A stretch of 64,000 bases of DNA, from the NCBI GenBank assembly GCA_029688905.1, contig JARULB010000005.1, positions 248,001 to 312,000 of the forward strand, written 5' to 3'. The translations under genes were made by a program, and so were the position numbers. The first letter of the stretch is position 1. The number at the start of each line of letters is the position of its first letter. Below are positions 2,384 to 37,286 of the stretch, in pieces. The stretch comes from Balneolales bacterium ANBcel1 (GTDB lineage Bacteria; Bacteroidota; Rhodothermia; Balneolales; Natronogracilivirgulaceae). Below the pieces are notes generated by a model, which made no database searches, had not been told where the DNA came from, and saw only the letters and a program-made list of their open reading frames with translations.

Positions 2384-2611
2384 GAAATACTCGTTTGCTT
2401 TTAATGTTTTTAAGCCGGCAGGCATGCTCTTCGTACCGGTCAACAAAAAACTGCCGGTTGCAGTTCTCCGCGGGCAGAAATACCGGCGGGCAACGGGTCA
2501 CATTTCAAAATAGGATATTGCGGCCTAGTCCCAAAATGAAACCGGACGTACCGGGGTCTCATTGCGAAATCAGACCGTGCTGTATACCGGCAACCTTTGT
2601 CGCAGCAATGG

Positions 2612-3820
2612 TTACCAGCTGAAAAGCGTACCGTCCATTTTACGGTTGACCGGCAGGTATGCCGGTTCATACGGATACTTTGCCGCCAGTTTCTCATCGA
2701 TATCCACCCCAAGTCCGGGTGCGTCTCCCGGATAGAAATAGCCGTCTGAGAAACTGTAATGATGCGGGAACACCTCATCGGTTTCACGGGTATGCGGCAT
2801 ATGCTCCTGGATACCGAAGTTATTGATTGCAATGTCCAGGTGCAGTGCGGCGGCCATGGTGACCGGAGAGAGATCGGTGGCGCCATGACTTCCCGTCTGC
2901 ACATGATACATCTCGGCAAAAGCAGCCACTTTTTTCATGTGGGTGATGCCGCCTGCATGCAGTGTGGTCATCCGTATGTAATCGATCAGTTGTTCACGGA
3001 TCAGATCGTGCGCATCCCAGACGCTGTTGAATATTTCGCCGACAGCCAGAGGAGTGGTGGTATGCTGTCGAATGAGCCGGAACCCCTCCTGAAGCTCCGC
3101 CGGAACCGCATCCTCAATCCAGAATAGACGATATGGTTCCAGATCCTTTCCCACCCTGGCGGCCTCAATGGGTGTCAGCCGGTGGTGGCAATCATGCAGC
3201 AGATGCGGCTCCTCGCCATAGACATCGCGAATTCGCTTGAACAGCTGTGGGACATGCCTCATGTATTTTTCTGTGGACCAGGCATGCTCCTGGGGCAGTC
3301 CCTTCTCGGCGGGTTCGTAGTCGCCGTCTCCTTTCGGCACACCATAGGTGGTCGGCACGCCCGGGATCCCGCTCTGCGCACGCACCGCCTTGTAGCCCAT
3401 ATCAAGATGCCGTCCGACCTCATCCACCGTCTGCTCTATATCCTTGCCGTTGGCGTGGCTGTAGACCATCACTCCGGTACGACTCTTGCCGCCCAGCAGG
3501 TTGTATACCGGAGTGCCCAGCGCCTTGCCCTTGATATCCCAAAGCGCCATATCCACGGCGGCGATGGCGGTCATGGTAACCGGGCCCCTGCGCCAGTACG
3601 CCCCCTTGTACAGATACTGCCAAATATCTTCGATCTGTGAGGGGTCACGGCCGATAAGGCAGGGCGCCACATGATCCTCAAGATAAGAGGCCACCGCCAG
3701 CTCACGCCCGTTGAGTGTCGCATCACCTATTCCGTAGACCCCCTCGTCGGTCTCGATTTTCAATGTAACAAAATTCCTTCCGGGGCTGCAGACAATGACT
3801 TTGGTGCTGGTAATTTTCAT
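2612..3820 (-). CDS. manD: D-mannonate dehydratase (ManD, enolase superfamily)
   Basis: 402 residues starting at [11 protein letters not shown] Met four codons upstream (3832) is possible, but the family begins at this one. The protein follows the ManD type closely: [20 protein letters not shown] near the N-terminus, then the metal-binding residues Asp210 (LLHDCHH), Glu236 (WIEDAVP) and Glu262 (AVGEIFN), with Arg147, Tyr159 and His212 at positions equivalent to characterised ManD enzymes. It dehydrates D-mannonate to 2-keto-3-deoxygluconate in glucuronate catabolism. No fructuronate reductase (UxuB) or isomerase (UxaC) is next to it. Some paralogues act weakly or not at all on mannonate, so the precise activity is inferred. 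It is probably transcribed separately from the catalase gene, which starts 228 bp downstream of its stop. Confidence 0.93.
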
Positions 3821-4008
3821 AATGAATTTCAATAAAGGTAATAACTAATTGCGGCAAACAACTGCCATGGGATGTTGACTCACGTTCGCTTGTCAACAGA
3901 AACACCTGCTACCGATTTGTAACAAAGGAAATTAATGTGTCGGTTCGAAAGATAAAGCTATCCCCAAAAAAACACTGCATCCATGTCTGGATTGCTTTAC
4001 GGCCTCAC

Positions 4009-4045
4009 AAAAAAAAGCCGACAACCCTGATTTGGGCTGCCGGCT
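4009..4045 (-). terminator. Terminator after the multi-CBM secreted protein
   Basis: On the minus strand AGCCGGCAGCCC and GGGTTGTCGGCT form a 12-bp stem with two wobble pairs and a 6-nt loop, followed by eight T residues (A run at 4009-4016 on plus). It lies 91 bp beyond the stop of the gene at 4136 and separates it from the mannonate dehydratase gene. Confidence 0.8.
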
Positions 4046-4135
4046 CCAGTTCAATAAGATGATATTTCCAATCGAAAACATCAGTGGTTAATCTACTGTC
4101 CGAAAATGATCCCAAACAGTAAACATGGATAACTG

Positions 4136-6757
4136 TTATTTAACCAGCATCATCTTTCTGGTCAGGACAAAACTACCAGCTTGCATACGGTAGAGATATA
4201 CGCCTGATGAGAGATTACTGGCATCAAAGTTTACGGTATGCAACCCCTGCGATTGCTCCCCATCAACCAAAGTCATGACTTGCTGGCCGAGTGCATTAAA
4301 TACATCAATGCGGACATGTGAAGCCTGTGGAACTTCATAGGAGATGGTAGTTACAGGGTTGAACGGATTTGGATAATTTTGCCGCAAATCGAATTCAGTG
4401 GCAAGCTCGGTGTCAATTCCACCGGACGTTGGCTCTCGTTCCACCTTTTCGACACGGGCATTGGCGAGATAGATGACAATGTTGTCGTTCTCTTCGTGGT
4501 TGAGGCCCACAGCGAGACGCATTGTATTCTCTTCGTCGGTTGCACTTACTTCGTGATAGTAGACAACCTCGGTCCATTCCGACGTAATGTCGGCCATGGT
4601 TCCACCTCCACCGGTCGCACCACTGCCACTGGGGTAACGTGCCCAGTTACCACTGGCCGGCAGTCCCAGGTACATATTGGCAAGCCCCGGGTTTTCTTCA
4701 TCCACACCATCAGCTCTGAGCCAAACCGAGGCACGGATGTAATCGCCTTCTTCCGGATAGATGGGTTCATTGACAGCTTCGACATTCCAGTCATCGCCAG
4801 ATCCGTCCCAGTCGCCAAAATCAATTCTCAGCGCCCTTCCGTCATCATTAAATGCACCTTCCTGGATTTCCATGGAGGCTTGATCGGTAGTCGAAAGTGT
4901 CCATGCGTAGGTATCACCATCGACCACCCCTGCTTCACTGGATGAGAAGTCACCGTTATAGTTCAACAGGTCGCCGATGGCATGCGGAGGCTGGGGTATT
5001 GGAAGAACTTTTTCGACGCGGGCATTGGCGAGATAGATGACAATGTTGTCGTTCTCTTCGTGGTTGAGGCCCACAGCGAGGCGCATTGTACTCTCTTCGT
5101 CGGTGGCACTTACTTCGTGGTAGTAGACAACCTCGGTCCATTCCGACGTAATGTCGACCATGGTTCCACCTCCACCGGTGGCACCGCTACCACTGGGGTA
5201 ACGTGCCCAGTTACCACTGGCCGGCAGTCCCAGGTACATATTGGCAAGTCCCGGGTTTTCTTCATCCACACCATCAGCTCTGAGCCAAACCGAAGCACGG
5301 ATATAATCGCCTTCTTCCGGATAGATCGGTTCATTGACGGCTTCGACATTCCAGTCATCGCCAGATCCGTCCCAGTCGCCAAAATCAATTCTCAGCGCCC
5401 TTCCGTCATCATTAAATGCACCTTCCTGGATTTCCATGGAGGCTTGATCGGTAGTCGAAAGTGTCCATGCGTAGGTATCACCATCGACCACCCCTGCTTC
5501 ACTGGATGAGAAGTCACCGTTATAGTTCAACAGGTCGCCGATGGCATGCGGAGGCTGGGGTATTGGAAGAACATCATCACCATTATCGTCTTCAACCTCC
5601 TTAACGGCTGTCAGATTATCAAGCAGCAGTTTACCGGCAACCGTCGGATCATCAGAGCCAAGTGCAATTTGCATCTGGATTTCTGCAATCTGATCCAAAT
5701 TGGGATAATCGTCTTCTGTTTGTGTTTCCCAGGCTGGTACTGCAAATGCCTCAAATGGAAGTACCACTTCTATCCAATCACCAGAATCATCAGCCAGATT
5801 CAGATCCACTGCGATTACCCAGGGAATCCGGCCTTCGTCGTGCTGGGTAAACAGAACAGCGTTGAAATTGGCAGAGCCTCCATCGATCGGATCCACGATT
5901 TTGTAGCTAAGCCGTAGTTCTTCGTAATCGGAGAGGACGGGGAATTGGTCATTCGTCGGTTGCAGTTGAATATCACTACTTCCACCCCAACCTTCGCCTG
6001 CAATTACCTCGTAGGTCCATTCAATAGAGTGATCGCCCTGAACAGCATCGTCGGAGACTGCAAAGGTAGAGACTCCTCCACCGTTATCCCAGTGCCCGAA
6101 GTTGTCAAGATTTTCAAATCCCCAAACGAGCAGCTCATCAACGATCTCATCATCTTCGTCGTCATCGTCATCCTCTTCATGGTGCAAAACCCGGAGGTAG
6201 TCAACGTAAAAAACATCCTCATTGGCATTATTATCACTGCCCAGGTGGATGCCTACATTCTGATTATCTCCAGCATGCACGAAGTGGTTGATTTCGATCA
6301 TTTCCCATTCATTCACTGGTAAAGAGCCGCCCCAGATTTGATTCGCTCCCGGATCCAGGCTGAATGTCGGGTTTCCGCCTCCCTGGGGGTCAGCCATAAT
6401 TCGCATCTCAACCGAATAGGTGTTGCCATTTTCAAAGCCTACGTCCAAATAGAGCGGCTGGATATCCCATGGGTTTTCAACACTTTCAACTTGGGTAATT
6501 GTCACCTTTAGCAGTTTATTCTCGCTGTCATCCGGATCTTCAACAATCTCAAAAGTCGCATAATCATCATCTGCCCCCACAAAGGCCCAATTTGCAACAC
6601 CTGTGGCCTCACCAACTTCTGCATCGGTAAAGTCCGAATTATCGTTGATCACCGTTTGAGCCGATACATTCCCCGCAATAAAGGCGGAAATAAGGCAAAA
6701 CGCACCCACCCTCATTATCTGCTTCATCTGCTTCCATAGTATACTATCTGATTTCAT
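4136..6757 (-). CDS. T9SS-secreted multi-domain carbohydrate-binding protein
   Basis: An 873-residue exported protein with a signal peptide ending about residue 33 (FIAGNVSAQ). Module 1 (about 35-195) resembles a CBM4/9-type beta-sandwich. An Asp/Glu-rich linker (HHEEDDDDDEDDE) leads to a CBM11-like module (about 205-390). Two near-identical 188-residue CBM4/9-like modules follow (about 397-585 and 585-773), each starting VLPIPQPPHAIG. The C-terminus carries the T9SS sorting domain, with NYPNPFNP and an ending SFVLTRKMMLVK. No glycosidase domain is visible, so it is probably a surface or secreted adhesin that binds polysaccharide. The ligand cannot be read from the sequence. It has its own terminator and a long 5' intergenic region, so it is likely monocistronic. 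Confidence 0.85.
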   Translation of the reverse strand: MKSDSILWKQMKQIMRVGAFCLISAFIAGNVSAQTVINDNSDFTDAEVGEATGVANWAFVGADDDYATFEIVEDPDDSENKLLKVTITQVESVENPWDIQPLYLDVGFENGNTYSVEMRIMADPQGGGNPTFSLDPGANQIWGGSLPVNEWEMIEINHFVHAGDNQNVGIHLGSDNNANEDVFYVDYLRVLHHEEDDDDDEDDEIVDELLVWGFENLDNFGHWDNGGGVSTFAVSDDAVQGDHSIEWTYEVIAGEGWGGSSDIQLQPTNDQFPVLSDYEELRLSYKIVDPIDGGSANFNAVLFTQHDEGRIPWVIAVDLNLADDSGDWIEVVLPFEAFAVPAWETQTEDDYPNLDQIAEIQMQIALGSDDPTVAGKLLLDNLTAVKEVEDDNGDDVLPIPQPPHAIGDLLNYNGDFSSSEAGVVDGDTYAWTLSTTDQASMEIQEGAFNDDGRALRIDFGDWDGSGDDWNVEAVNEPIYPEEGDYIRASVWLRADGVDEENPGLANMYLGLPASGNWARYPSGSGATGGGGTMVDITSEWTEVVYYHEVSATDEESTMRLAVGLNHEENDNIVIYLANARVEKVLPIPQPPHAIGDLLNYNGDFSSSEAGVVDGDTYAWTLSTTDQASMEIQEGAFNDDGRALRIDFGDWDGSGDDWNVEAVNEPIYPEEGDYIRASVWLRADGVDEENPGLANMYLGLPASGNWARYPSGSGATGGGGTMADITSEWTEVVYYHEVSATDEENTMRLAVGLNHEENDNIVIYLANARVEKVEREPTSGGIDTELATEFDLRQNYPNPFNPVTTISYEVPQASHVRIDVFNALGQQVMTLVDGEQSQGLHTVNFDASNLSSGVYLYRMQAGSFVLTRKMMLVK
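4439..5566 (-). repeat. 564-bp tandem duplication inside the CBM gene
   Basis: Two head-to-tail units of 564 bp (4439-5002 and 5003-5566) encode consecutive 188-residue modules. By eye about 14 base differences fall in the part encoding the C-terminal two thirds of each module, most of them silent. Roughly the last 210 bp of each unit on the plus strand (4790-5002 against 5354-5566) look identical. The proteins differ at only two sites: MVDITS/MADITS and DEESTM/DEENTM. Confidence 0.95.
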
Positions 6758-8401: not shown

Positions 8402-9763
8402 ATGAAGAAAAAATATCACGCGCACATTGAAGCCTTCATGGACGAGGTGGAGTCGCGCAATCCGGGAGAACCGGAATTTCTGCAGTCGGTCAGAGAAGTT
8501 GCTGAAACGGTTATACCTTTTATTTCAGAGCATCCGAAATACAGCAAAGCCAATATCCTTCATCGCATGGTTGAACCCGAGCGGGTAATCATGTTCCGTG
8601 TCCCTTGGGTGGATGATGAGGGAAAAGTTCAGGTGAACCGGGGCTACCGGGTTCAATTTAATTCTGCAATCGGCCCGTACAAGGGCGGCCTGAGGTTTCA
8701 CCCGTCGGTGAACCTGAGCGTACTGAAGTTTCTCGGATTTGAGCAGATCTTCAAAAATGCGCTCACTACCCTGCCTCTTGGCGGCGCCAAGGGCGGATCC
8801 GAGTTCGACCCCAAAGGCAAGTCGAACCTGGAAGTAATGCGGTTCTGCCAGAGTTTTATGACCGAACTCCAGCGTCACATCAATAAATACACGGATGTTC
8901 CCGCAGGTGATATCGGTGTCGGCGCACGTGAAATCGGCTTTCTTTTCGGTCAGTATAAACGCCTTCAAAATGAATTTACCGGCGTTCTTACCGGTAAGGA
9001 TCTGAACTGGGGCGGCTCGTTCATCCGCCCGGAAGCCACCGGTTACGGAACCGTCTATTTTATCGCGGAAATTCTTGCCAAGCTGAACGACAGCTTCGAA
9101 GGAAAGTCGGTTGCGGTATCGGGCTCCGGAAATGTTGCCCAGTTTACGGTTGAAAAAGTGATAGAGCTGGGTGGAAAGGTGATCAGTGTGTCGGATTCGT
9201 CCGGTTGCATCATGGCCAAGGACGGCCTGACCCACGAGCATCTCGAGTTCATGAAAAGGCTGAAAAATGAAACGCGCGGGCGTATTCACGAAATGGCCGA
9301 TAAATTCAGCGAATTAAGCTTTCAGGACAGCGATTGCGTCTGGAACCTGCCGATAAACATCGACATCGCCATTCCCTGCGCCACCCAGAACGAGCTGGAC
9401 GCCGAACATGCCCGTCACCTGATTGACAAACGGGTCAAAATCGTGGGCGAAGGCGCCAACATGCCGTGTACCTCCGAGGCCGTTCACCTCTTCCAGGATG
9501 AAGGCGTAATTTTTGCCCCGGGCAAGGCCGTCAACGCCGGCGGTGTGGCCACATCCGGTCTGGAAATGGCACAAAACGCCCTCCGTCTGAGCTGGGATCG
9601 TGAAAAGGTGGACAGCAAGCTGCTGGGCATCATGAAGAACATCCACCAGCAGTGTGTCACCTACGGAGAGAACGAAGACGGCTCGGTGGACTATGTCCGT
9701 GGTGCCAACCTGGCCGGCTTTGTCAAAGTCGCCGATGCCATGATGGATCAGGGAGCGGTATAG
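8402..9763 (+). CDS. gdhA: NADP-type glutamate dehydrogenase
   Basis: 453 residues, the usual length of hexameric bacterial GdhA. It interconverts 2-oxoglutarate plus ammonium and glutamate, and serves ammonium assimilation in the cytoplasm. The glutamate-site lysines sit in GPYKGGLRFHP (Lys94), QIFKNA (Lys118) and LPLGGAKGG (catalytic Lys130). The cofactor domain contains VSGSGNVAQFTVEKV, and GEGANMPCTSEAV marks the C-terminal region. GSGN with a following Ser-rich loop (VSDSSG) fits the NADP-preferring group, but cofactor choice is inferred from overall similarity to GdhA. The spacer upstream is AT-rich with no clear Shine-Dalgarno sequence, which is common in this phylum. Confidence 0.96.
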   Translation: MKKKYHAHIEAFMDEVESRNPGEPEFLQSVREVAETVIPFISEHPKYSKANILHRMVEPERVIMFRVPWVDDEGKVQVNRGYRVQFNSAIGPYKGGLRFHPSVNLSVLKFLGFEQIFKNALTTLPLGGAKGGSEFDPKGKSNLEVMRFCQSFMTELQRHINKYTDVPAGDIGVGAREIGFLFGQYKRLQNEFTGVLTGKDLNWGGSFIRPEATGYGTVYFIAEILAKLNDSFEGKSVAVSGSGNVAQFTVEKVIELGGKVISVSDSSGCIMAKDGLTHEHLEFMKRLKNETRGRIHEMADKFSELSFQDSDCVWNLPINIDIAIPCATQNELDAEHARHLIDKRVKIVGEGANMPCTSEAVHLFQDEGVIFAPGKAVNAGGVATSGLEMAQNALRLSWDREKVDSKLLGIMKNIHQQCVTYGENEDGSVDYVRGANLAGFVKVADAMMDQGAV

Positions 9764-9811
9764 AACATCCACCGTTCCGCTTCCATTCTGCCCTCTATTA
9801 ATTTCCCCGCA

Positions 9812-9846
9812 ACTCCGGCTTTTCCCAATCAGGGAAGCGCCGGAGT
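9812..9846 (+). terminator. Strong hairpin after gdhA
   Basis: ACTCCGGC (9812-9819) pairs with GCCGGAGT (9839-9846), with a second inner stem TTCCC/GGGAA around an AATCA loop. It lies 48 bp after the gdhA stop. There is no T run, so it may stabilise the mRNA end rather than act as an intrinsic terminator. Confidence 0.4.
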
Positions 9847-9891
9847 GCGTCGCGGGTTTGTGCTTTCTCTGAATCTCCGCAATCGAAAATT

Positions 9892-9916
9892 GACGCCCGT
9901 TTTAAATGCAGGCGTC
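9892..9916 (-). terminator. Weak terminator for the C25/HEAT protein gene
   Basis: GACGCC (9892-9897) and GGCGTC (9911-9916) form a 6-bp stem. On the minus strand it lies just beyond the stop of the gene at 9928 and is followed by AATTTTC. The stem is short, so this is tentative. Confidence 0.35.
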
Positions 9917-9927
9917 TCCTGTTTTGG

Positions 9928-12303
9928 TCAGAGCGTAAAGGGATGGTTGGGGGGCTGGCTCAACCGGTTGATCGACCGGGTTATCTCCGCCGACAAGGCG
10001 CGGTATCGGTCAGCGTCGGGGTGATTATTTGATTCGGCGCTTTGTGCTCCTTCACCAGTCGAAGCGTTCTGCGGCAAATCGCTTCCCATGGCACTGCCGG
10101 ATTCGTCATGACTCCATCCGGCCTGTGCCAGATCGTCCCTGATATTTTTCAGCCCCTCCAGTATTTCTTCACGCTGATAGCTGAAAAGATACCATCCCAG
10201 TGTCTCGGCCGCGATGATCCGCAACTCTACATCGTCATCTTCACGCGTTACCAGCGCCAGTAGCGGCTCCACAACCTGCTGGTAGCGATACAGTCGGAAC
10301 ATGCGAATTGTTCGGCGGCGGTCGTTGAACGCCAGTGAAGTATCCCGAATGGCCGGAATCATCTCTTCTTCCAGTTGTCTTCCGGTGCGCTCGAAATTAT
10401 TCAGGGTGTGCGCAACCATCTGCTTCCCCTCTTCGTTTTCATCATGACGGTCCAGCACCACACGGCAGGCATCCGCAGCCCGGGGTGCATCCACTTTCTG
10501 GATGGCGGTACGCGCCTTGAACCTGACCCTCCGCGAGTGATCGTTTATCAGCGCCTCCGCTATCATATCCATATAATCGGAACGGCCAATGTCTCCCATC
10601 AGACCAATGCTCACGCGCCGGATGTATTCATACGGGTCATGTACGGCTATCGGCAGGATGTGATGAATATGATCGGTCAGGGAGTGCATCCGGGCCAGTG
10701 CCTTCAGTGCCTGCAGCCGCACGATATAGGCGGGATCGTTTTCGTACATCCGCTGCAGCGTATCGGCGACGGAAGCACCTTTCAACCGGGCGCTCATTTC
10801 TATCGCCAGGGCACGGTAGTTCGGATCCGGATCATTCAACATCTCCTCCCAGAATGACGGCTCTTTCGTTTTCTCTCTGAGGATGGAATTGATATCGCGA
10901 TCGGTGTCAGCGGCAAACCGGAAGGTGGGGTCTCCAATAATATGGGTCTCCAGGTGGTTTTTAAAATAGACAAGCCGGCCGGCCCGCATTCCATCGGTTA
11001 GCAATCCGAGAAACTGATTGGCATCGATATCCTGTAGAACGGATACGGAATGGGCAAGCGCCGCGACCGTCTGGCCATTGCCAAAGACATAACTGCCGGC
11101 AACATACGGCGCCTGGATGAACGCCCCGTTGAAACACTGGTCAAACATGATAAATTGGGGAGCCGGACTCAGACGCTCGACATCACCGACATGCATGTCC
11201 TGATTGGCGGATGTGATGGAGTCGGCGCGGATAACCTCCTCATCGAATGCTCCGTCAAACCAGCGGGCATCAATTCCGAATTCTTCATAGTACTGAGCTT
11301 TTACCTCTTCAAGCGGCTGGCCGCTTCTTTCGGCACGCCGCAGGCGGTTTCTGAGGAAAAGCTGGATGGCGTCCACCTGAGCCTGAACGGTTCTGTGCCG
11401 GGGCGATCCGACCAGCAGCTGACGCTCCGGGGTACCATGAGCGTGGAAAACCGCCAGGTTAAGCTCTGGTTTCTGCAGTTCCCGGTAGAGCTCAAATTTG
11501 AGGTCTTCTCCTTTGAAGTGGTAATAGTTGGTGAGGCTTCCTCCAGGAGTGAAAAATTGTGGAAACTGTTCTCTCAGTGAGGTGATCTCTCCCTCCCAGG
11601 ATGCCAGTGATTCGGAATGATATCCGTGTCCGGTGGTAAACAGTCCGTGTTGAAGAATCGGCGGGTTCGCTTTCTGCTTCGCCACCCGTAGTAGATACCG
11701 GTTGACCATCTCCCGGCCTTCGGCTCCTTCTGCAGGAGCCTTGATCCGGCCGCTGTACAGATCCATACTCAAAAACTGGGGCGCGTCCGGCAGCAACGAA
11801 TAATAGTGTTTAAGGGGATGGTTGTCATCCGGACCGATATAGGAAAACTCCAGGTCAAAATCATCATAAAAGCGGTCTGATGGGATCGAAGAGCGTGATT
11901 TGTCAAACCGCTCCTGATCCATTTTAAACGAAGAGGTCAGATGTTGCGCATCCCGTATCATGGGGATTGGCAGGTCACCGACGAGAACAAAACCCTCGAG
12001 GGAGGGGTTTTCTTCCGCCAGGCTGCGGATCAAATCACGCAGCGGATCGGGCCGCTCCCAATCCCCGATGATGGTATAGACATTCAGTTTGTCGTACTGC
12101 TCCAGTGCCCTGCGGTACGCTTCAATGCCATCGGAGGCCACCTTGCCTGTTTCCGAATCCACAATAATGGCAAACGCGGCGGAATGCCCGGTGGTCGGGG
12201 GAGTGATCTGTGGTCCCGCATACACGTTTCCGACACTCATTATAATGAACACCAGAGACAAAAGCAGGACGGAGAGGGACCGGAGGCGATATTGAATTAA
12301 CAT
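9928..12303 (-). CDS. Gingipain-like (C25) caspase-fold protein with HEAT-like repeats
   Basis: 791 residues with a signal peptide (cleavage near residue 29, NVYAG). Residues about 40-470 resemble the peptidase C25 (gingipain) fold. The candidate dyad is His289 in LAVFHAHGTPE and Cys390 in FIMFDQCFNGAF, and the domain ends with IIGDPTFRF, a motif typical of C25 proteins. Residues about 480-740 form alpha-helical repeats resembling HEAT or armadillo repeats (DPNYRALAIEMSARL, DPAYIVRLQALKALARM). A low-complexity Ser/Gly/Asn stretch lies near 735-770. There is no T9SS domain, unlike true gingipains, so it is probably periplasmic or otherwise surface-located. It is the last gene of a five-gene minus-strand run. 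Whether it is proteolytically active is unknown. Confidence 0.75.
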   Translation of the reverse strand: MLIQYRLRSLSVLLLSLVFIIMSVGNVYAGPQITPPTTGHSAAFAIIVDSETGKVASDGIEAYRRALEQYDKLNVYTIIGDWERPDPLRDLIRSLAEENPSLEGFVLVGDLPIPMIRDAQHLTSSFKMDQERFDKSRSSIPSDRFYDDFDLEFSYIGPDDNHPLKHYYSLLPDAPQFLSMDLYSGRIKAPAEGAEGREMVNRYLLRVAKQKANPPILQHGLFTTGHGYHSESLASWEGEITSLREQFPQFFTPGGSLTNYYHFKGEDLKFELYRELQKPELNLAVFHAHGTPERQLLVGSPRHRTVQAQVDAIQLFLRNRLRRAERSGQPLEEVKAQYYEEFGIDARWFDGAFDEEVIRADSITSANQDMHVGDVERLSPAPQFIMFDQCFNGAFIQAPYVAGSYVFGNGQTVAALAHSVSVLQDIDANQFLGLLTDGMRAGRLVYFKNHLETHIIGDPTFRFAADTDRDINSILREKTKEPSFWEEMLNDPDPNYRALAIEMSARLKGASVADTLQRMYENDPAYIVRLQALKALARMHSLTDHIHHILPIAVHDPYEYIRRVSIGLMGDIGRSDYMDMIAEALINDHSRRVRFKARTAIQKVDAPRAADACRVVLDRHDENEEGKQMVAHTLNNFERTGRQLEEEMIPAIRDTSLAFNDRRRTIRMFRLYRYQQVVEPLLALVTREDDDVELRIIAAETLGWYLFSYQREEILEGLKNIRDDLAQAGWSHDESGSAMGSDLPQNASTGEGAQSAESNNHPDADRYRALSAEITRSINRLSQPPNHPFTL

Positions 12304-12395: not shown

Positions 12396-14642
12396 TTATT
12401 TGATTAACATCATCTTTCGTGTCAGGGAGGTAGTCCCGGTAGAGAGCCGGTAGATATAGACACCGCTTGCCAGGTTCGCGGCATCAAACGCAACCTGATG
12501 CGTCCCTGCCTGGAGCGTCTCATCCACCAGTACCGCCACCTGCTGTCCGATCATGTTGTAGACGGACAGATGGACCCGCTGCTGGTCTGGTACGGCAAAC
12601 GAGATTTGTGTGGCCGGGTTGAACGGATTGGGATAGTTCTGATCGAGACGGATGTGTACGGGATGATCGATTCCGGCCAACCCGGTAGGAACATCATCTA
12701 TGTACTCTTCGCCGGCGACAATTTCACCAACGGTCGAGCCTATATATACCCGATTTCCGTTAAATGCTGCGGTTATGAAAATCCGCTCTCCGGCAAACGT
12801 ATCATCGGCAGTCCAGCTCTCACCACCGTCCTCCGTTTTTATGATATAGCCGCCGAAGGTCGCTGCATAGGCCACCTCTCCCTGTACCGCAAGGGCGTAA
12901 AAATTGGAGTCGATATCCGCCACGCCATGGTCTACCCACTGCCAGGTCTGACCGGCATCCTCGGTTTTTACGATAAATTTGTCGCCGACAGCCCAGGCCG
13001 TGGTTTCATCGACGACGACAGCACTGCGAAAATCGGCCGATTCACTAAATCCCTCGGGAAATCCGGCAGATAGCGTGTCCATTTCAACCGTTTCAAAAGC
13101 ATCACTGGTACGCATAATTACGCGGTTCGGCCCGGCGATAAACCCGTTATTATCGTCAAAGAACCGGATCTGTCCTATGACGTTGGCCGGACCTGTGAAC
13201 TGAAGGTGCTCGTTCCAGCTCTCTCCGCCGTCAGTGGTTTTGTAGATGTAGTAAGCCGCGCCGGTATTGAGGCTCATCCAGGCGTACCCGGTATCATCGT
13301 CCGTGAACGTGACTCCGCCCGAACGGTTATTGGCAATGTTCGGAACATCTTCCAGCACCGTTGACCAGGCAGCTCCGCCATCGGTGGTTTTCACTATCTG
13401 GCGGTTTCCTTTCTGGATGATTCCGGTAGATGCGTTTTGGAAAAACATGTTGTTCCCACGGCCCGGACTGTTATGCAGCGTGGATCCGTGATAGACAAAC
13501 TTTCCGCTTGATTCTTCATACACAAACAGGGAACTGGATGCGTTGACGGCAAATCCGGCACCGTCTTCGGTGAACTGAATCGCACGTATTTCCGAGTAGG
13601 GGTGTACCGGAAGCTGCGAAACGGTCTCTCCAAAATCTTCCGAGACAAATAGATTGCTGGACGACCCCTGGATGAACAATTTGCTGCCGGAAAGGGATGT
13701 TTTCTGGAAATTCGCGTTAAAATCGAGGAGTTCCGTTGACCAGCTTCGGCCGGCGTCCATGCTTCTGGCGATTACCGGACGTGTTGCCCTGTCATGCCCA
13801 ACGGCGATCACATGATCGGCATCAATCACCTGGAGGCCTGTAAAAACATCGACGGTCATGGCTTCATCAAATGCGGCGGGTTCAAATGTCGCGCCACCAT
13901 CCGTTGAATAATACACGGTCGTCGGCAAGTTTTGAAAGGAGTTTCCCTGACCCATGGCGACTACCGTGTTTTCATCCAGCCAGCGAACCGCGTTCAGTAA
14001 GGTCAGGTTGCTTATGGCCGGCAGGTTGTTGGCCTGCAGCCAGTTTTCACCTCCATCAACTGTGTGGAACTGTCCATCGGGATTGTTGCTCACCAATACC
14101 CCCCGATCGGTGTCATAAAAATCAAAATCGAGCCAGTTGGCCCCGATCAGTGAATCCTGGACGGCCCAGGTCTCGCCTCCGTCATCGGTCCGGAGCATGA
14201 AGTTGTTGTTGTGACGGCCGGTCAGCATAAATCCGGTTTCGGCATTCAGAAACTGAATTCTGCGCAACAGGTTAATATCGAGGTGTTCAATGACATCCTG
14301 AAAATCCGTCTGTACCCAGCTGTTGCCGCCGTCGATGGTTTTCAGCAGAAACGCCGAGCTTGATCCGATCCAGCCGGTTTCCTCATCTACAAAGAAAACC
14401 GATGTAAACGCATCGCCGGCGTATTCTGCCGTGGAGTGGTCGGTCCAGGTCAATCCACCGTCGTCGGTCCGCTTGATCGTGCCATTTGTGCCGACGGCCC
14501 ATCCTTCGGTTTCGGACAGAAAGTGGATATCGTTAATAAATCCCGGAAAATCTGCTTCCAGTACGGTTGTCCAGTTTTCCTGTGCCGTTGCGGCGGAGAA
14601 AAACAGGATCATTATGCTCATGAACTGTACTGCTTTTTTCAT
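12396..14642 (-). CDS. T9SS-secreted BNR-repeat (Ycf48-like) beta-propeller protein
   Basis: 748 residues with a signal peptide (MKKAVQFMSIMILFFSAATAQ). The body is a series of BNR/Asp-box repeats with the recurring pattern KTxDGGxxW (TDDGGLTW, TIDGGNSW, TTDGGAAW, TEDGGESW), as in Ycf48/Hcf136-like and sialidase-type propellers. The C-terminus is a T9SS sorting domain: NYPNPFNPATQISFAV, then LASGVYIYRL and an ending LTRKMMLIK. No catalytic residues stand out, so it is a structural or binding propeller exported to the surface or medium. It lies 42 bp downstream of the DUF6850-type barrel gene and is probably co-transcribed with it. Confidence 0.85.
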   Translation of the reverse strand: MKKAVQFMSIMILFFSAATAQENWTTVLEADFPGFINDIHFLSETEGWAVGTNGTIKRTDDGGLTWTDHSTAEYAGDAFTSVFFVDEETGWIGSSSAFLLKTIDGGNSWVQTDFQDVIEHLDINLLRRIQFLNAETGFMLTGRHNNNFMLRTDDGGETWAVQDSLIGANWLDFDFYDTDRGVLVSNNPDGQFHTVDGGENWLQANNLPAISNLTLLNAVRWLDENTVVAMGQGNSFQNLPTTVYYSTDGGATFEPAAFDEAMTVDVFTGLQVIDADHVIAVGHDRATRPVIARSMDAGRSWSTELLDFNANFQKTSLSGSKLFIQGSSSNLFVSEDFGETVSQLPVHPYSEIRAIQFTEDGAGFAVNASSSLFVYEESSGKFVYHGSTLHNSPGRGNNMFFQNASTGIIQKGNRQIVKTTDGGAAWSTVLEDVPNIANNRSGGVTFTDDDTGYAWMSLNTGAAYYIYKTTDGGESWNEHLQFTGPANVIGQIRFFDDNNGFIAGPNRVIMRTSDAFETVEMDTLSAGFPEGFSESADFRSAVVVDETTAWAVGDKFIVKTEDAGQTWQWVDHGVADIDSNFYALAVQGEVAYAATFGGYIIKTEDGGESWTADDTFAGERIFITAAFNGNRVYIGSTVGEIVAGEEYIDDVPTGLAGIDHPVHIRLDQNYPNPFNPATQISFAVPDQQRVHLSVYNMIGQQVAVLVDETLQAGTHQVAFDAANLASGVYIYRLSTGTTSLTRKMMLIK

Positions 14643-14684: not shown

Positions 14685-16265
14685 TCAGGGCAGCGGCACC
14701 CGATAGCTGATTTGCGAGGTAACCTGGCGCCGGCCGGCGCTGTTATTCATTTCAGAAAGATGACGCCCCCTCAGGTCCAGGCGGATTTCATGATCTCCAG
14801 GCAGCGCATATACTGCCCGAATTCCGGCATGGTGACCGGCGAAACCGGATATCTGAAAATCGATATCCCTTCGTCGATACTCATCGAAATACGGTGTTGT
14901 TGCATCTGCAGACAGGTCGTACCCGGACTTTTTGCGATGCTGATAGCCGTAGGTTACCGTCAGCGAAAGGTTGGTCACGGCTTCTGTTGTGAAGCCGGTG
15001 AGGAATCCCGCATCGAGATGTTCTGCCGACCAGTGAACCTGGCTGTAATAGTCGTCTTCGTGGAGATCGGTCAGGGCAAGTGACCCTTCCAGTGCCCACA
15101 TCCATCCGGGCGAAAACCTGTGGGAAAAACCGGTTACCCACTGATGGCTATAGCCGCCTGCTTCCAGAAAGAGAGCTTCAAATGGCTGATATTCCGCCCA
15201 GCGATTTCCTTCCCGGTAGCGATAGCCGGTGTTCACCGACCATGATCCGAAACTCCAGAGCAGGTCTGCCTCAAGGTGATGAGTCCGCGCCGAGGTATAC
15301 CCTTCGTCCCGAGGCCGGGTAAGGTCTTCTTCTATTCGCAGCGATGTGTGCGACCCGGTGTACTGAACGTGGAACAGAAGGCCTTCGGAGAGCTGCCATG
15401 ACAGGTGTGACCCGTAGCTCCACCGACTGCTGCGGGTAAGCCGGGTTTCGCGGTTTCGGTACTGGACAACCGGAAGATCGTAGCCGCGAAAAAAGATGAG
15501 CCGGGTTTCATCAAGTATGGATCCTTCATACTCGGTATATCGCAGCTCCTCTTCACGATCGGTGAAGCTCCCGTGGACTCCCCAGCGCAACGGTCCATGG
15601 TCCAGTGCGCCACCGGCCGTAATGCCGAACGAACGGTGCGTTGAAAGCGGCTTGGGTGCCACCTCCTTCATCCCTTCATCCACAGAATAATCCACTTGCG
15701 CGCCCACGGATCCGTAGTTATTGATGCGATACGTATAGGAGCCGGTGAGGTGAATTTCGTGATACCGCGACATTCCGCTGGTACTGTCACCTATCAAGAA
15801 AGGATGCGCGGCTTCATGCTCTCTTGTCGAGATCCATTGCCGGTCATGCAGTTCCAGGCGGCGAAAACCGAAGGAGCCGCTATAAAGCCGGCGGTCGCCT
15901 GTAGTTCGGCTTCCGTGCGCGTGAAGATCATACTGCACCTGATTTGCGGGGTCCACAAATCGCCGGTACCGGCCTCTTTCGTCCGAATATCCGCTTTCCA
16001 TTCGAAGGGCGTCGCCTCTGTGTGAGTACAACAGCAATGCCGGGTTACCGGTCTTTCCTGCCCAGTCGAAGGGCCGGTCGTGGCGCAGCAGTTGGTACTG
16101 GAAGTAATCCGGAGTGGTTGGCAGCCATTGTGTTGCGGCATGGGCAGGAACAAGAGATGCCAGACAGACGACAGGAATCAGAGCCGAAAGCAGCCGTATC
16201 CATCGGCGCCGTAAGAAGACACGGCGGGAGTTCAGATAAAATAGTATATGGCTCGGCAAGTTCAT
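14685..16265 (-). CDS. Outer-membrane beta-barrel protein, DUF6850-like
   Basis: 526 residues with an Arg-rich N-terminus, a hydrophobic signal segment and AHA cleavage near residue 43. The rest is alternating beta-strand sequence rich in aromatic residues (SYTYRINNYGSVGAQVDYSV, SWQLSEGLLFHVQYTGS) ending in RVPLP, as expected of an outer-membrane barrel. Its position after a TonB-dependent receptor and a DUF4876-type lipoprotein matches the co-occurrence I know for DUF6850 barrels in Bacteroidota; that family name is my recollection and should be checked. It is 40 bp from the upstream gene and 42 bp from the downstream one, consistent with one operon. Its role is not established. Confidence 0.7.
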   Translation of the reverse strand: MNLPSHILFYLNSRRVFLRRRWIRLLSALIPVVCLASLVPAHAATQWLPTTPDYFQYQLLRHDRPFDWAGKTGNPALLLYSHRGDALRMESGYSDERGRYRRFVDPANQVQYDLHAHGSRTTGDRRLYSGSFGFRRLELHDRQWISTREHEAAHPFLIGDSTSGMSRYHEIHLTGSYTYRINNYGSVGAQVDYSVDEGMKEVAPKPLSTHRSFGITAGGALDHGPLRWGVHGSFTDREEELRYTEYEGSILDETRLIFFRGYDLPVVQYRNRETRLTRSSRWSYGSHLSWQLSEGLLFHVQYTGSHTSLRIEEDLTRPRDEGYTSARTHHLEADLLWSFGSWSVNTGYRYREGNRWAEYQPFEALFLEAGGYSHQWVTGFSHRFSPGWMWALEGSLALTDLHEDDYYSQVHWSAEHLDAGFLTGFTTEAVTNLSLTVTYGYQHRKKSGYDLSADATTPYFDEYRRRDIDFQISGFAGHHAGIRAVYALPGDHEIRLDLRGRHLSEMNNSAGRRQVTSQISYRVPLP

Positions 16266-16305: not shown

Positions 16306-17658
16306 TCAGTTGGTATCCTGGGTGCTGTCCCGGTTGGTTACCAGGCTGTTTCTCGGGGTGAAATCCGGATGATAGCCGGGGGTAGGCCGCTCATTGATCC
16401 GGAAGTCCACCGAGGAGTTGTTGGTATTTTGCAGCTGCGGCGTGCCTCCGTCATTTTCAGCCGGCCGGCGTTCCATGGAGCGTCCCGTATAAAAACTGAT
16501 GCCTCCGGCTGCTCCCGCGTCGATGGCGGGATTCAGTTTCTTCAGGGAGAGATTGGCGGGATTGTGGAGATACTCCACGCCGTCGATGACATCCACATAG
16601 GGTATGAGAATTCTGCCGTCCCGCCACTTCAGATCCTGGGTGTCGGTCCGCGCCAGCACTATGGCGTCGGCCTGCCCCCCTACCAGCCAATCCACACCAC
16701 TATCCTGATAAATCATCACCATATTTGGCACATTGGGGTTGTCGATATCGGGGGCATCCGGCTTGTAGAATTCAAAATCGGCACCGGACATATCGTGGCT
16801 CTCCGGTGCGTTGATCCTGTGGTCGATGGCATCCACAGCGCAGATCACGAACTGGCCCGGCCCGATCGGGTAATCTGTTCCCGAACCGGGAAACTTCCAG
16901 ACATTGGTGGAATGGATGAATTCGGGATCATCGATAAAGTTGAGGCCGAGCCAGGAACTGGCATAGACCCGAGCTACTACCAGTCCGTCGAGGTACAGGG
17001 TAGAATCGGTTTGATTGTAGAATTCGATGTAGCGGTCGAAGAAATAGAGGCCTGCGCCGGGCGGTCCCGACACATAAATTTCGCTGAACACGATGGGGGC
17101 ACCTCCGAAAACCAGTTCTAGTGGGATAGTGACCGATCCGTCGGAATCCCCCCGAATATCCACGGAGGGATGGCTTCGGTTCGCCAGCGAGTAGCTGTTG
17201 GCATGCATCAGGTCGGGCATCCGTTCAATTTCATTTCTGCGCAGCGGACGGTCAACACTTATGAAATAGCGATCGGAAACAAGTCCGGTCACCTCCACCC
17301 GGCCTTCCGAATCACTCCAGAAGAGGTGTTCGGTTCCATGTGTATTTGAACGCAGCTGCACCCGAGCGCTGTCGGCCAGGGTGCGGCCGTAAACGGTTTC
17401 CATGACACCCGATTCATCCACCAGCTCCAGGACGGTTGTACCGGCGCGTTCGGCTTGAGCGGGCTTGTCGCGTTGCGAAACGACATCATCACATCCAAAA
17501 ACAGCCGGCAGAATCATGAGCAGCATAACCGGAATCCGGCGACTCCACACAATTGATCGGGGTCGATCGAGTGCGGGATCGATCAGCAGCAGCGACATCA
17601 GGTCACGCCACAGTATCGTTATCGTTGAAATGGGACGACAAACACCTGGTAGTTTCAT
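16306..17658 (-). CDS. DUF4876-type lipoprotein
   Basis: Up to 450 residues. The real start may be the Met at 17596-17598, giving a basic stretch, a hydrophobic segment (IPVMLLMILPAVFGC) and a lipidated Cys. A carboxypeptidase-regulatory-like beta-sandwich follows (TTVLELVDESG, GRVEVTGLVSDRYFISV). Then comes the lamin-tail-like region typical of DUF4876: FSEIYVSGPPGAGLYFFDRYIEFYN in part, with LYLDGLVVARVY and GPGQFVICAVDAIDH. The C-terminus is disordered. It sits 80 bp downstream of the TonB-dependent receptor gene and is likely a surface lipoprotein partner of it. The ligand is unknown. Confidence 0.75.
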   Translation of the reverse strand: MKLPGVCRPISTITILWRDLMSLLLIDPALDRPRSIVWSRRIPVMLLMILPAVFGCDDVVSQRDKPAQAERAGTTVLELVDESGVMETVYGRTLADSARVQLRSNTHGTEHLFWSDSEGRVEVTGLVSDRYFISVDRPLRRNEIERMPDLMHANSYSLANRSHPSVDIRGDSDGSVTIPLELVFGGAPIVFSEIYVSGPPGAGLYFFDRYIEFYNQTDSTLYLDGLVVARVYASSWLGLNFIDDPEFIHSTNVWKFPGSGTDYPIGPGQFVICAVDAIDHRINAPESHDMSGADFEFYKPDAPDIDNPNVPNMVMIYQDSGVDWLVGGQADAIVLARTDTQDLKWRDGRILIPYVDVIDGVEYLHNPANLSLKKLNPAIDAGAAGGISFYTGRSMERRPAENDGGTPQLQNTNNSSVDFRINERPTPGYHPDFTPRNSLVTNRDSTQDTN

Positions 17659-17738: not shown

Positions 17739-20411
17739 TTAAAACCGATAGCTGAACTCCACCCCGTAAAAAACGGGAGGATTTCTCCGTTCATAGCTAA
17801 GAGCGGCCTCGGCCCGTCGCCGAAGCTGGTACCTCGGCCGGTGATTGAAAATGTTGTTCACAAAGAAGGTCACTTCGGAGCCTTCAAAAAGGGACTTGCT
17901 CACATTCAGGTTCATGAGCCAAAGGTTGGGCCGTTCCTCATCCAGCAGCTGGAAGTCTTCGTATCGGCGCCGCAGCTCGATATAACGTTCGTCACCCCGC
18001 TCCTCTTCGGGAATAAACACGGTTTCCTGCGAGGGAGTATAGTAGCCGATGGCCAGGGTGTCGGACAGACCGTCGCGCCCGTCTATGTTGAACAATTGCT
18101 GCTGGACATGAATCGTAACCCAGAGACCCAGTGATCTGGATTGAATCTCCGCGCGGTAGTTGAAGAGCAGGTTGCGGTCATATCGCTCTTCGGTTGCGTA
18201 CACCGGCAGCACAAACCGGCCGAATTCATCACTGAAGCGGCGGCTGCCATATTGAATGCCGTTCTCGTTACCCCTGCGGTTGTCGATATAGGCGGCATCC
18301 ACCCTGAAGGCCGTGTTAATCCGGGTAAATCGCTGTGTCCTCAGACTCAATTCCAATCCGTGCGCATGATGCCATCCGTCGTTAATGTATGTGGGATAGC
18401 TTTCAAGAAGGGTATCACGAACCATCGCTCCGGATTCATCCGGCCAGTTGGGAAACGAGTGCTGATAGAAGGCCGTCGGTTCACTGAAGATCCGGAACAT
18501 GTCGTCGCTCCGATTCAGGAAAGCGGTAGCGCTGAGGCCCACTTTTCCGATTTGCTGATCGAGGCTAATTTCAAATTTCTGCTGTTTATACCCCTGCAGG
18601 TTGGGGTTTGCCTGTTGGCGGATGTGGGTTGTGACCAAAGCAAAATTCGCCTCCGGCCGGGACGGATCCACAACCGATACGGTATCAACGATATCGTAGT
18701 AGCGATCCTGGGCGAACACCATGCCCATGGGCGGCGATTTGCTGGTTACGCCATAACCCAGTCTGAGCCGGGTGTCGGCGGCGAGATGCAGTGACAGGTT
18801 GACACGAGGATTGAGGAAGGTGCCGTTGCGGGATTCGATGAGTGCGCCATCGCCGATCAGTGCGGAGGGATTGATCCCTGTGGGCCGGTAGGCTTCGTAA
18901 CGCACACCTGCCTGCAGGCGAAACGGGATTCCGATACGGCCGGAGATATGGTCCTGGATGTAGAGGCTGAGAATATTAAATGCGGGCAGGTCGTCGTAGG
19001 TTCGCAATCGGGGAGAGGGGTTGGTCAGTGATGGCGGATAGAGCGGATCGAACTCGATTCCGTCACCACGATTGAAATCCGATCGAAACGTGATGCCCCC
19101 CAGAAGCTGATGATAGAGTGCACCGGTTTCAAATTGCCAGCGATGGTTAACATCCGCGTATACATTCCAAACCGATCCGCGGATCCACTGCCGGCCCAGA
19201 TAACTTCCAAACACGATAGTCCCTTCGCGCGTCCCTTCCTTTTCGGCATTGCTCACGACCATATTGTCCCTGGAAATCAGTCGCTGCTCGTAGGAGTTTT
19301 GCCGGGTGTGGTTGACCGACCAGCTGGCTCTGGTTCTGTGGGAGCTGTTCAAGTCATAGTGCATTTCTCCGGAATAGCGAAGATTCACATCGCGGTTGTA
19401 CCAGGCCTGGCGAAGCGCGTAACCGGGCTGTTCCTGGCGCTCATCCAGTGCCCGGGTGGCGTACAGGCTCTGGCTGAAGTTCCAGTCGTCGGTACGGCGA
19501 CGAAGATTGATCTGGCCCGAAAAGCGGGTGTACCCGTCATCTTCGATGCGGATATCATTCCTCGCTGAGGCTATGTTGGCATTGGAATTAAGCACCCAGC
19601 CGGAACTCCCCAGACGAAAGCCGCCCGAGGCGTTGTATTCGGTGATGTTGGGATTATAGGAGATTTTTAGTCGAAGGGGTTCGGGCCGTGACCTGGTGCG
19701 CACTATGATGGCCCCGTCGGTCATGTCGCCATACTCGACCGAAGGAATTCCCCGGATCACCGACACTTCTTCGATATTCTCGGCGGTAAATTGTCTGAGA
19801 TCAAGGCCCCGGTTGGCAGTATTCGCCCCAATACCGATCTGCATGTTGGCATTATTGGTGATCGGAACGCCATCCACAAGTATCTGAGTGCCAAGCGCAT
19901 CTCCGCCGCGAATAACTCCCTGTTCCGGAGTGTTCAATGTCGGATTGGTGGTCTGCACGCCGGGCATCAGTTGCAAAACGGTTCCCAGACTGGCTGTTGC
20001 CATATGCTGAATTTCACCGGAGCTTATTACCGATCCGGTCTCCAGATCGCGCGACATCAGATCGTCCGGAGCCGTAACGGTGATTGCTCCGATTTCGAAG
20101 TAGGTCGGAACCATCCGGTACTCCCTGTAGACGTTCTGCCCGGCTGTGACTTGCACCGTATCGACCAGCCGCTCATAGCCCAGCATGGAAAATTGCAATG
20201 TATAGGTACCCGGCCTGACGGGAATATCATATCTGCCCGAGGATCCGGTCGACCGGCCTGTAGAGAGTTCCCTGACCAGTACGGATACATTTTCTAGTGG
20301 ATCGCCCTGCTCATCGAAGACCATTCCGGTGATTCGCGAACTGCCGGACTGACCGTGAACCTGCGATAAAGCCACGAAAATAAATAGCAGTAGGAGTCCT
20401 GCTGACCTCAT
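17739..20411 (-). CDS. TonB-dependent receptor
   Basis: 890 residues. A signal peptide (MRSAGLLLLFIFVALSQVHG) is followed by a carboxypeptidase-regulatory-like domain (about 25-105, ITGMVFDEQGDPLENVSVLV) and a plug domain (about 115-230: GVIRGGDALGTQILVDGVPI, SVEYGDMTDGAIIVRTRSR). A 22-strand-type barrel ends FYGVEFSYRF with the terminal Phe typical of outer-membrane proteins. It lacks SusC features and has no SusD partner; its neighbours are DUF4876 and DUF6850-type genes. It is the first gene of a five-gene run and is separated from the upstream GH2 gene by 369 bp, so it probably has its own promoter. The substrate is unknown. Confidence 0.92.
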   Translation of the reverse strand: MRSAGLLLLFIFVALSQVHGQSGSSRITGMVFDEQGDPLENVSVLVRELSTGRSTGSSGRYDIPVRPGTYTLQFSMLGYERLVDTVQVTAGQNVYREYRMVPTYFEIGAITVTAPDDLMSRDLETGSVISSGEIQHMATASLGTVLQLMPGVQTTNPTLNTPEQGVIRGGDALGTQILVDGVPITNNANMQIGIGANTANRGLDLRQFTAENIEEVSVIRGIPSVEYGDMTDGAIIVRTRSRPEPLRLKISYNPNITEYNASGGFRLGSSGWVLNSNANIASARNDIRIEDDGYTRFSGQINLRRRTDDWNFSQSLYATRALDERQEQPGYALRQAWYNRDVNLRYSGEMHYDLNSSHRTRASWSVNHTRQNSYEQRLISRDNMVVSNAEKEGTREGTIVFGSYLGRQWIRGSVWNVYADVNHRWQFETGALYHQLLGGITFRSDFNRGDGIEFDPLYPPSLTNPSPRLRTYDDLPAFNILSLYIQDHISGRIGIPFRLQAGVRYEAYRPTGINPSALIGDGALIESRNGTFLNPRVNLSLHLAADTRLRLGYGVTSKSPPMGMVFAQDRYYDIVDTVSVVDPSRPEANFALVTTHIRQQANPNLQGYKQQKFEISLDQQIGKVGLSATAFLNRSDDMFRIFSEPTAFYQHSFPNWPDESGAMVRDTLLESYPTYINDGWHHAHGLELSLRTQRFTRINTAFRVDAAYIDNRRGNENGIQYGSRRFSDEFGRFVLPVYATEERYDRNLLFNYRAEIQSRSLGLWVTIHVQQQLFNIDGRDGLSDTLAIGYYTPSQETVFIPEEERGDERYIELRRRYEDFQLLDEERPNLWLMNLNVSKSLFEGSEVTFFVNNIFNHRPRYQLRRRAEAALSYERRNPPVFYGVEFSYRF

Positions 20412-23297: not shown

Positions 23298-23340
23298 AGC
23301 GGACGGGGTATGGTCAGAGTGGGTTGATTGCCGGGCCGTT

Positions 23341-23399
23341 CCTGGGGTAAACGGGGTCGATCAGGTCGTTTTTCCCCAGGCCGTTCCTATTAAGAACGG
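23341..23399. repeat. Adjacent hairpins in the GH31-GH2 spacer
   Basis: CCTGGGG (23341-23347) can pair with CCCCAGG (23374-23380), and immediately after it CCGTTC (23381-23386) pairs with GAACGG (23394-23399). The short direct repeat GGCCGTTCCT occurs twice here. The 147-bp spacer between the GH31 stop-proximal end and the GH2 start could therefore fold in the mRNA and affect relative expression. Confidence 0.35.
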
Positions 23400-23444
23400 G
23401 GCCCGCCAGGTCGATTTATCGGGTCATTTCTGTGGCGGATGGAG

Positions 23445-25850: not shown

Positions 25851-25966
25851 GGTTATGGCGTTGAAGGTTAATAGTTTTGGCGTCTTAAATGGTAAAAAAA
25901 ATAGATTCTCATGTGGATTGATACCCATTGCGATCATGGTTCCGTACCCTGTCGGCCTGCAGGGTA

Positions 25967-28516: not shown

Positions 28517-28576
28517 TTACTGCGGTAATTATTCCGCCCGGAGTTCGGGCAGCTTGAAACAGACAACACCAAGATC

Positions 28577-28619
28577 AAAAAAAACCGGTGTCTCCGGAAC
28601 TTTCAAAAACACCGGTTTT
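28577..28619 (-). terminator. Intra-PUL terminator between SGBP and GH74
   Basis: AAAACCGGTGT (28581-28591) pairs perfectly with ACACCGGTTTT (28609-28619) over 11 bp. On the minus strand the stem is followed by a run of eight T residues (A run 28577-28584 on plus, partly in the stem). It lies between the SGBP stop and the GH74 start, so binding and transport genes should be transcribed more than the hydrolases unless GH74 has its own promoter. Confidence 0.82.
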
Positions 28620-28671
28620 GCGGAGGTCATACATGCCATGAATCATTCTGTCTGAAAACGGATCGGTGAAA

Positions 28672-29901: not shown

Positions 29902-29963
29902 ACATTCAGGGGGTTAGCGGGATAACTGTTAAACGTTGCCGTCCGAGCCGCATACTCTATTCA

Positions 29964-31559: not shown

Positions 31560-31584
31560 AATTAATTTATTTCGAATACACGGG

Positions 31585-35079: not shown

Positions 35080-35110
35080 AGTTATGGTCGTTCATTTACA
35101 GTTGGACAAA

Positions 35111-36172: not shown

Positions 36173-36493
36173 TTCGTTGTATTAATGTTCTGTCTACTAT
36201 TCACTACCATGAAAGGGTCCGGTACCCCTACACGCTTTCCATATCTTTGGAAAAACAGCGAAGCCATGGGCCACTCGGAAGTTTTACGACAATCCCCGGC
36301 ATCCATCAGCAACCCCGCCCATGTACGGGACCAATCCTGTGCCGAAGCGTGCAACACTTTGATTATCCGTCAATTCCGATGCTGTTGCGTGTTGCGCTGA
36401 AACCGCATTGGCCATTTACCCTTCGGATTTCTGTCATATTCCTTCGGCATGACTATAGATTACCCTGAATGCCCAATTCATTTGTAATACCGG
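36173..36493. other. Spacer between sigma and fecR genes
   Basis: 321 bp with no supported gene. A 62-codon minus-strand frame within it has no recognisable features and low plausibility. The spacer is unusually long for an ECF sigma/anti-sigma pair and could hold a separate promoter for fecR-susC-susD. I found no clear consensus element. Confidence 0.3.
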
Positions 36494-37063: not shown

Positions 37064-37249
37064 TTCGATTACAACAAAGGTGCACCCCGACAAATGTGTA
37101 AGCTGCTATTACCCTCCGAACAGACAATTTTCGGATCATCCCAAGTAAAATCAAGTTAAATTGAACCGGACTTGTAAACATTTCATCAGGTGTCTGAACA
37201 GTGCATTCCGGCAACGGACAGCGACAGCGGTTGTGAAATCTTTTCGACA

Positions 37250-37286
37250 AGAAAAAACCGGCACGGACATCACATCCGTACCGGTT
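37250..37286 (-). terminator. Terminator-like hairpin upstream of the sigma gene
   Basis: AACCGGCACGGA (37256-37267) and TCCGTACCGGTT (37275-37286) form a 12-bp stem with one mismatch around a 7-nt loop. On the minus strand it is followed by a T run (A residues 37252-37257). It points toward the sigma gene, which starts 187 bp further on, and no minus-strand gene lies upstream of it. It may be an attenuator in the sigma-gene leader or a relic. Confidence 0.6.

Follow-up and report, generated by a model that had tools for sequence, protein, structure and literature searches.

A predicted gingipain-like cysteine protease with HEAT repeats, encoded in a conserved TonB-dependent receptor operon

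Introduction

What does a protein that the database labels only "HEAT repeat protein" do in an operon with a TonB-dependent receptor (TBDR)? We address this question for a gene of Balneolales bacterium ANBcel1, located in a window of 64,000 nucleotides that constitutes the whole stretch of DNA analyzed (contig JARULB010000005.1, positions 248,001 to 312,000). The original prediction described a caspase-fold domain resembling peptidase family C25, fused to helical repeats, and proposed that the protein, here called HEAT-C25, processes or inspects exported proteins encoded nearby. The fold and the conservation of the catalytic dyad had both been set beforehand as tests that could refute it, and both were passed.

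Results

Layout of the HEAT-C25 protein

The HEAT-C25 protease gene occupies positions 9928–12303 of the minus strand, as do all features of the protein given below within these limits, and encodes 791 amino acids from an ATG start, as judged from the open reading frame, the AlphaFold model, and the relatives. A predicted Sec-type signal peptide (residues 1–29, 12217–12303; cleavage site placed by eye) precedes the gingipain/C25-like catalytic domain (residues ~40–465, 10909–12186) and a set of HEAT repeats (residues ~480–727, 10123–10866), which match Pfam HEAT_2 (PF13646) with an E value of 2.4e-21 and are modeled as a helical solenoid. C-terminal to the repeats come a linker of low confidence and a single helix. 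Both the profile and the α-solenoid typical of HEAT-repeat proteins are thus present, and 66 of 66 family members match HEAT at E ≤1. A Pfam search found no T9SS tail (Por_Secre_tail) in the 791 residues, so the C-terminal sorting domain of gingipains proper is missing; the protein has helical repeats instead of a T9SS domain, just as had been predicted.

A hydrophobic N-terminal stretch is present in 138 of 140 copies from relatives. By eye, about nine of the relatives have lipoprotein-like N termini, with convincing signals at the starts in loci L022, L025, L030, L042, L044, L050, L071, and L079 and in the L026 copy at 7584. From these sequences, membrane anchoring is predicted to differ among members, with lipoprotein signals in some and plain signal peptides in others, and the lipoprotein-like relatives make the outer leaflet a possible location. 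The HEAT-C25 protein is probably periplasmic.

The predicted fold is that of gingipains

AlphaFold modeled the mature protein with a pLDDT of 92.4 and a pTM of 0.91 from an alignment of 66 rows, and the catalytic part alone with a pLDDT of 91.5 from 39 rows. The main alignments, including that of the 66-member Pfam tally, draw on 65 of the 79 loci fetched for comparison, and a smaller alignment draws on 38 of the 79. The 14 loci left out of the main alignments were truncated, redundant, or oversized (L027, L033, L039, L040, L047, L048, L051, L058, L065, L066, L070, L074, L076, and L077). L077, absent from the alignments behind the structure prediction, holds an ORF of 1419 residues at 2433–6689, roughly double the normal size, which resembles a fusion of two HEAT-C25 copies.

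Upon realignment to solved structures, the domain model matches gingipain RgpB (1cvr) with a Z score of 30.2; 291 residues align with an RMSD of 2.5 Å and 16% identity, and the alignment spans model residues 1–426. For Kgp (4rbm), the Z score is 29.3. Scores are lower for separase (16.0), for Craspase TPR-CHAT and Csx29 (~14), for a C11 protease (7.2), and for caspases (~5). The model contains both an N-terminal pseudo-caspase subdomain and a catalytic subdomain, as expected of the C25 fold. The ranking of gingipains over separase, and of separase over caspases, indicates a caspase-like fold in its gingipain form, complete with the N-terminal subdomain, and bears out the caspase/gingipain-like topology that had been proposed. 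We consider it very probable that the protein has a gingipain fold with a conserved His–Cys dyad.

A direct sequence search of solved structures returned designed HEAT-like proteins and chance-level rows and nothing else, and a search of them with the domain profile gave no credible match. Plain Foldseek placed the gingipains outside its best 50 rows; they ranked first after the Foldseek candidates were realigned. As the direct sequence searches yielded no gingipain match, the relation to gingipains emerged only with structure.

Active site and relation to peptidase family C25

The candidate dyad of the original prediction, His289 in HAHG (11437–11439) and Cys390 in DQCFNG (11134–11136), is found at the residues named there and is retained in all 141 near-full-length sequences, namely the window protein and 140 copies from the fetched loci. 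A wider set of 145 rows, which includes the window gene twice, has the His in 144 rows and the Cys in 143, with gaps in the remaining one and two rows, respectively. Asp425 is invariant wherever the rows cover its position; from that position, we take it to be a possible match for the Asp that sets the basic-residue specificity of Kgp.

When the HEAT-C25 domain profile was aligned to a set of 31 same-phylum C25 sequences, hhalign gave a probability of 96.1% and an E value of 3.4e-9 over 323 columns. In this alignment, the Cys residues coincide, as do the GDP motifs, and PSDRFYDDFD falls on the matching part of C25. An invariant SIPSDRFYDDFDLEF stretch of the N-terminal subdomain (residues 139–153, 11845–11889) aligns to the equivalent C25 stretch, and the invariant GDP motif (residues 457–459, 10927–10935) opens the GDPTFRF sequence that closes the catalytic domain, which agrees with the proposal that this end is gingipain-like. 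An insertion kept hhalign from pairing the catalytic His with that of C25, and the two are equated on the basis of the HG motif and topology. A C25 profile built from PorU alone gave a weak match, with a probability of 28.6% (0.1% for a HEAT control and 0.5% for a column-shuffled control) and likewise weak HMM scores; addition of 20 more diverse C25 sequences raised the probability from 28.6% to 96.1%.

The insertion is helical and specific to the family. The spacing between His and Cys has a median of 101 residues among 143 HEAT-C25 sequences; it could be measured in 18 of the 31 C25 sequences and is 34 in 13 of these. Spacing and model helices together point to 60–70 additional residues, located at residues ~300–368 (11200–11406; limits approximate), within which Arg318 and Asp361-Ser362 are conserved. 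At 14587–16704 of L066, a third tandem copy lacks the insertion (spacing 38) and carries an RGHG motif, like classical C25 peptidases; no Pfam family was found in it, and it may connect the family to ordinary C25 peptidases.

The window protein has no match to Pfam C25 (PF01364) up to an E value of 1. At this threshold the C25 model hits 5 of the 66 members, and the L028 relative exceeds the cut-off with 27.2 bits against 23. Because the Pfam model is blind to the window protein yet passes the L028 relative, the family is a divergent C25-like branch rather than a canonical C25 member. Weak Pfam hits to DUF655, an immunity protein, and the like were dismissed as chance.

A conserved TonB-dependent receptor operon

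The operon in the window lies entirely on the minus strand, with gaps of 40–92 nt. It begins with the TBDR (CarboxypepD_reg and Plug domains by Pfam, 17739–20411), followed by a DUF4876 protein with an LTD-like stretch (Pfam E 2.3e-30, 16306–17658), a DUF6850 outer-membrane β-barrel protein (Pfam E 2.3e-35, 14685–16265), and a BNR/Ycf48-type repeat protein with a T9SS sorting tail by Pfam (12396–14642), which is part of the same operon in this lineage; the protease comes last. By eye, the DUF4876 protein has the lipobox AVFGC if an internal Met is the start.

Across the 79 loci, the TBDR is present in 67, DUF4876 in 68, DUF6850 in 71, and all three in 66. Eight of the 11 loci without DUF4876 start no more than ~1.6 kb from the end of the available stretch; L013, L026, and L069 lack it without being near such an end. 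The protease follows the DUF6850 ORF directly and on the same strand in 52 of 74 cases, with a median gap of 17.5 nt, and a BNR gene separates the two in 10 more of these 74. The HEAT-C25 gene is part of a conserved operon of TBDR, DUF4876 lipoprotein, DUF6850 β-barrel, and protease. Promoter and terminator consensus scans were uninformative.

Distribution and tandem copies

A scan of genome contigs found relatives encoded in 248 of 262 pattern-matching stretches, from which 79 distinct loci were fetched. The relatives occur in Balneolales, Ignavibacteria, Calditrichia, Neomarinimicrobiota, many Bacteroidales, and relatives of Chitinophaga and Sphingobacterium. A single copy is present in 41 of the 79 loci, with two copies in 16, three in 19, four in 2, and five in 1. 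Copies located just downstream of the operon, second downstream, or upstream of it fall, with exceptions, into largely separate clades, which suggests old duplications with distinct tasks that have been kept; the dyad is intact in all tandem copies.

In a sample of 148 genomes from the phylum, the protease is found in 3, DUF4876 in 14, and DUF6850 in 18 (13 over the cut-off). All three protease genomes also carry DUF4876 and DUF6850, and the protease is missing from 11 of the 14 DUF4876 genomes, so transport itself does not need it. No match to the protein was found in phage records, and a search for anti-phage defence gave a chance-level hit only.

A link to iron

Published expression data connect similar gene clusters to iron. 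In iron depletion, BT1933-39 of B. thetaiotaomicron are up 3.5–7.4-fold and PG1019-22 of P. gingivalis 20.8–214.5-fold (PMC10434189). The products are given as an IS256 transposase, hypothetical proteins, a HEAT repeat protein, a DUF4876 protein, and a TonB-dependent receptor for the former, and as a DUF4876 protein, a TonB-dependent receptor, and hypothetical proteins for the latter; the legend of Figure 1 sets PG1019-21 against the BT_1938-9 loci (PMC10434189). The BT gene is named there only as HEAT repeat domain-containing, and the main text of that paper uses "C25" 0 times. A DUF4876 gene is also reported among those most changed with haemin supply (PMC10470040). Like the window operon, both clusters include DUF4876 and TBDR genes and the BT cluster a HEAT-repeat gene (PMC10434189); by product names and order, rather than by sequence, they look equivalent to the HEAT-C25 operon. 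A Fur-box scan showed no enrichment upstream of 72 receptor genes (mean chance score 0.60).

Discussion

A proposed role in cargo digestion

We favor, with a probability of roughly 40%, the view that HEAT-C25 is an exported gingipain-like cysteine endopeptidase that cuts the imported cargo of a TonB-dependent metal-uptake system. The protease would be made together with the metal-uptake receptor and exported, likely to the periplasm, where the HEAT solenoid would position a bound protein, either a partner or the cargo, at the active site. Once imported, a protein or peptide carrying iron or haem would be cleaved and its metal freed, and the tandem copies may serve different cargoes.

The idea of cargo digestion comes by analogy with the protease of ferredoxin piracy, in which the Fus system pairs the TBDR FusA with FusC, an M16 metalloprotease. 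The two systems share a TBDR and an exported protease encoded together, as well as a connection to iron; a TBDR lies in the same operon in 66 of 79 HEAT-C25 loci. Since the protease here has a caspase/gingipain fold and is not of the M16 type, the analogy with Fus is only functional, and we know of no Fus counterpart for DUF4876 and DUF6850. Ferredoxin uptake in Pectobacterium provides a precedent for digestion of an imported cargo (PMC7593965). A bolder extension, which we regard as doubtful, is a widespread uptake system in which Bacteroidota of the gut, the mouth, and the environment, together with related phyla, use TBDRs to import intact proteins or peptides that carry iron or haem and digest them with dedicated, tandemly diversified, HEAT-guided periplasmic proteases of gingipain fold. 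This would amount to ferredoxin-type iron piracy achieved a second time by unrelated means.

Alternative explanations

The protease might instead mature or quality-control its own operon, trimming or activating the DUF4876 lipoprotein, the DUF6850 barrel, or the receptor, with the HEAT repeats recognizing a folded client. A C25 peptidase that acts in maturation is already known in PorU of the T9SS, the coupling to the same two or three partners is tight, and the invariance of the catalytic residues in widely differing hosts suggests a constant client made by the cell itself. We nevertheless judge this reading rather unlikely, since the protease is absent from 11 of 14 DUF4876/DUF6850 genomes in the phylum sample, and loci with as many as five protease copies but mostly one of each partner gene fit variable substrates better. 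Less likely still is a surface or secreted protease that degrades host or environmental proteins and so supplies peptides, haem, or iron to the receptor. Gingipains do degrade proteins to such ends, and some relatives look like lipoproteins, but neither a T9SS tail nor any other export tail is present and most copies, which look like plain Sec substrates, should stay in the periplasm.

Even less can be said for an inactive pseudoprotease serving as a binding scaffold. HEAT repeats are binding modules and the inserted helices might shield the active site, but His and Cys persist in 141 of 141 copies, paralogues included, which makes loss of activity very improbable. We give as little weight to the last alternative, inspection or processing by the protease of the BNR protein or of T9SS C-terminal domains. 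It draws on the BNR/T9SS gene just upstream here and on a T9SS-type C25 peptidase elsewhere in the source genome; Pfam detects Por_Secre_tail in the neighbors at 12396–14642 and 4136–6757. However, such a BNR neighbor occurs in only 12 of the 79 loci. Among 12 carrier genomes hand-picked from the 79 for spread, with completeness not given, seven have no C25 peptidase recognizable by Pfam and hence no detectable PorU-type sortase, and in an eighth (that of L028) the single C25 match is as long, and scores as weakly, as the HEAT protein itself would. Por_Secre_tail matches number zero in four of these genomes, one in three, and 3, 4, 13, 150, and 70 in one each; dyad and operon are kept even though nine of the 12 have no more than four tails. 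The C25-like domain and HEAT architecture of the original prediction therefore stand, whereas processing or inspection of T9SS-exported neighbors is not supported as the general role of the family; local action on the BNR protein in this lineage is conceivable. The T9SS-tailed protein at 4136–6757 (minus strand) also contains a nearly identical internal tandem duplication of ~180 residues.

Comparison with known proteases

HEAT-C25 shares with RgpB and Kgp the whole catalytic fold, including the N-terminal subdomain, the His-then-Cys order of the dyad, and the GDP ending. It differs from these gingipains in an identity of only 13–16%, in the 60–70-residue insertion, and in having HEAT repeats and a transport operon in place of a prodomain, IgSF domain, and T9SS tail. 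With PorU, the T9SS sortase, it has the C25 fold and profile similarity in the N-terminal subdomain in common; PorU-like genes, however, are separate and encode ~1,300 amino acids, and HEAT-C25 also occurs in genomes without a recognizable C25 sortase. Separase and Csx29/TPR-CHAT of clan CD similarly join a caspase-like protease to an α-helical repeat module, but they are cytosolic, use another repeat type and order, and match the fold less well (Z scores of 16 and 14).

In what was accessible of the literature on DUF4876, on HEAT repeats with TBDRs, and on C25 with HEAT, we found no published description of the HEAT-C25 protein as a protease, and a literature search found no paper naming DUF6850. 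Gingipain folds and HEAT repeats are each already known; their fusion, the insertion, and the apparently iron-linked import operon are not described in the accessible literature searched. Proteins labeled only "HEAT repeat" would become a recognized protease family with an import operon that is reportedly induced by iron starvation, and the gingipain fold would be placed outside T9SS export. The operon would also gain an enzyme that can be assayed, raising the question of whether Bacteroidota import and digest metal-bearing proteins.

Related operons and the surrounding locus

Two operons without a HEAT-C25 gene encode a di-haem cytochrome c peroxidase (CCP_MauG) near DUF6850, in L112 directly after it (9800–10948) and in L114 one small gene further on (9486–10616); peroxidase and protease may be interchangeable partners of the metal system. 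Other DUF4876 operons are followed by an ABC-transporter-type gene in L121 (6985–8661, by eye) and by a near-cut-off ABC_tran match in L123 (10130–11510), and ECF-sigma/FecR-like genes were seen by eye before those in L118, L120, L121, L123, and L124. In the window itself, positions 20781–40091 encode GH2, GH31, a BNR-T9SS protein, SGBP_B, SusD, a SusC-like receptor, FecR, and GH95, which suggests a xyloglucan-type glycan-utilization locus just upstream of the operon.
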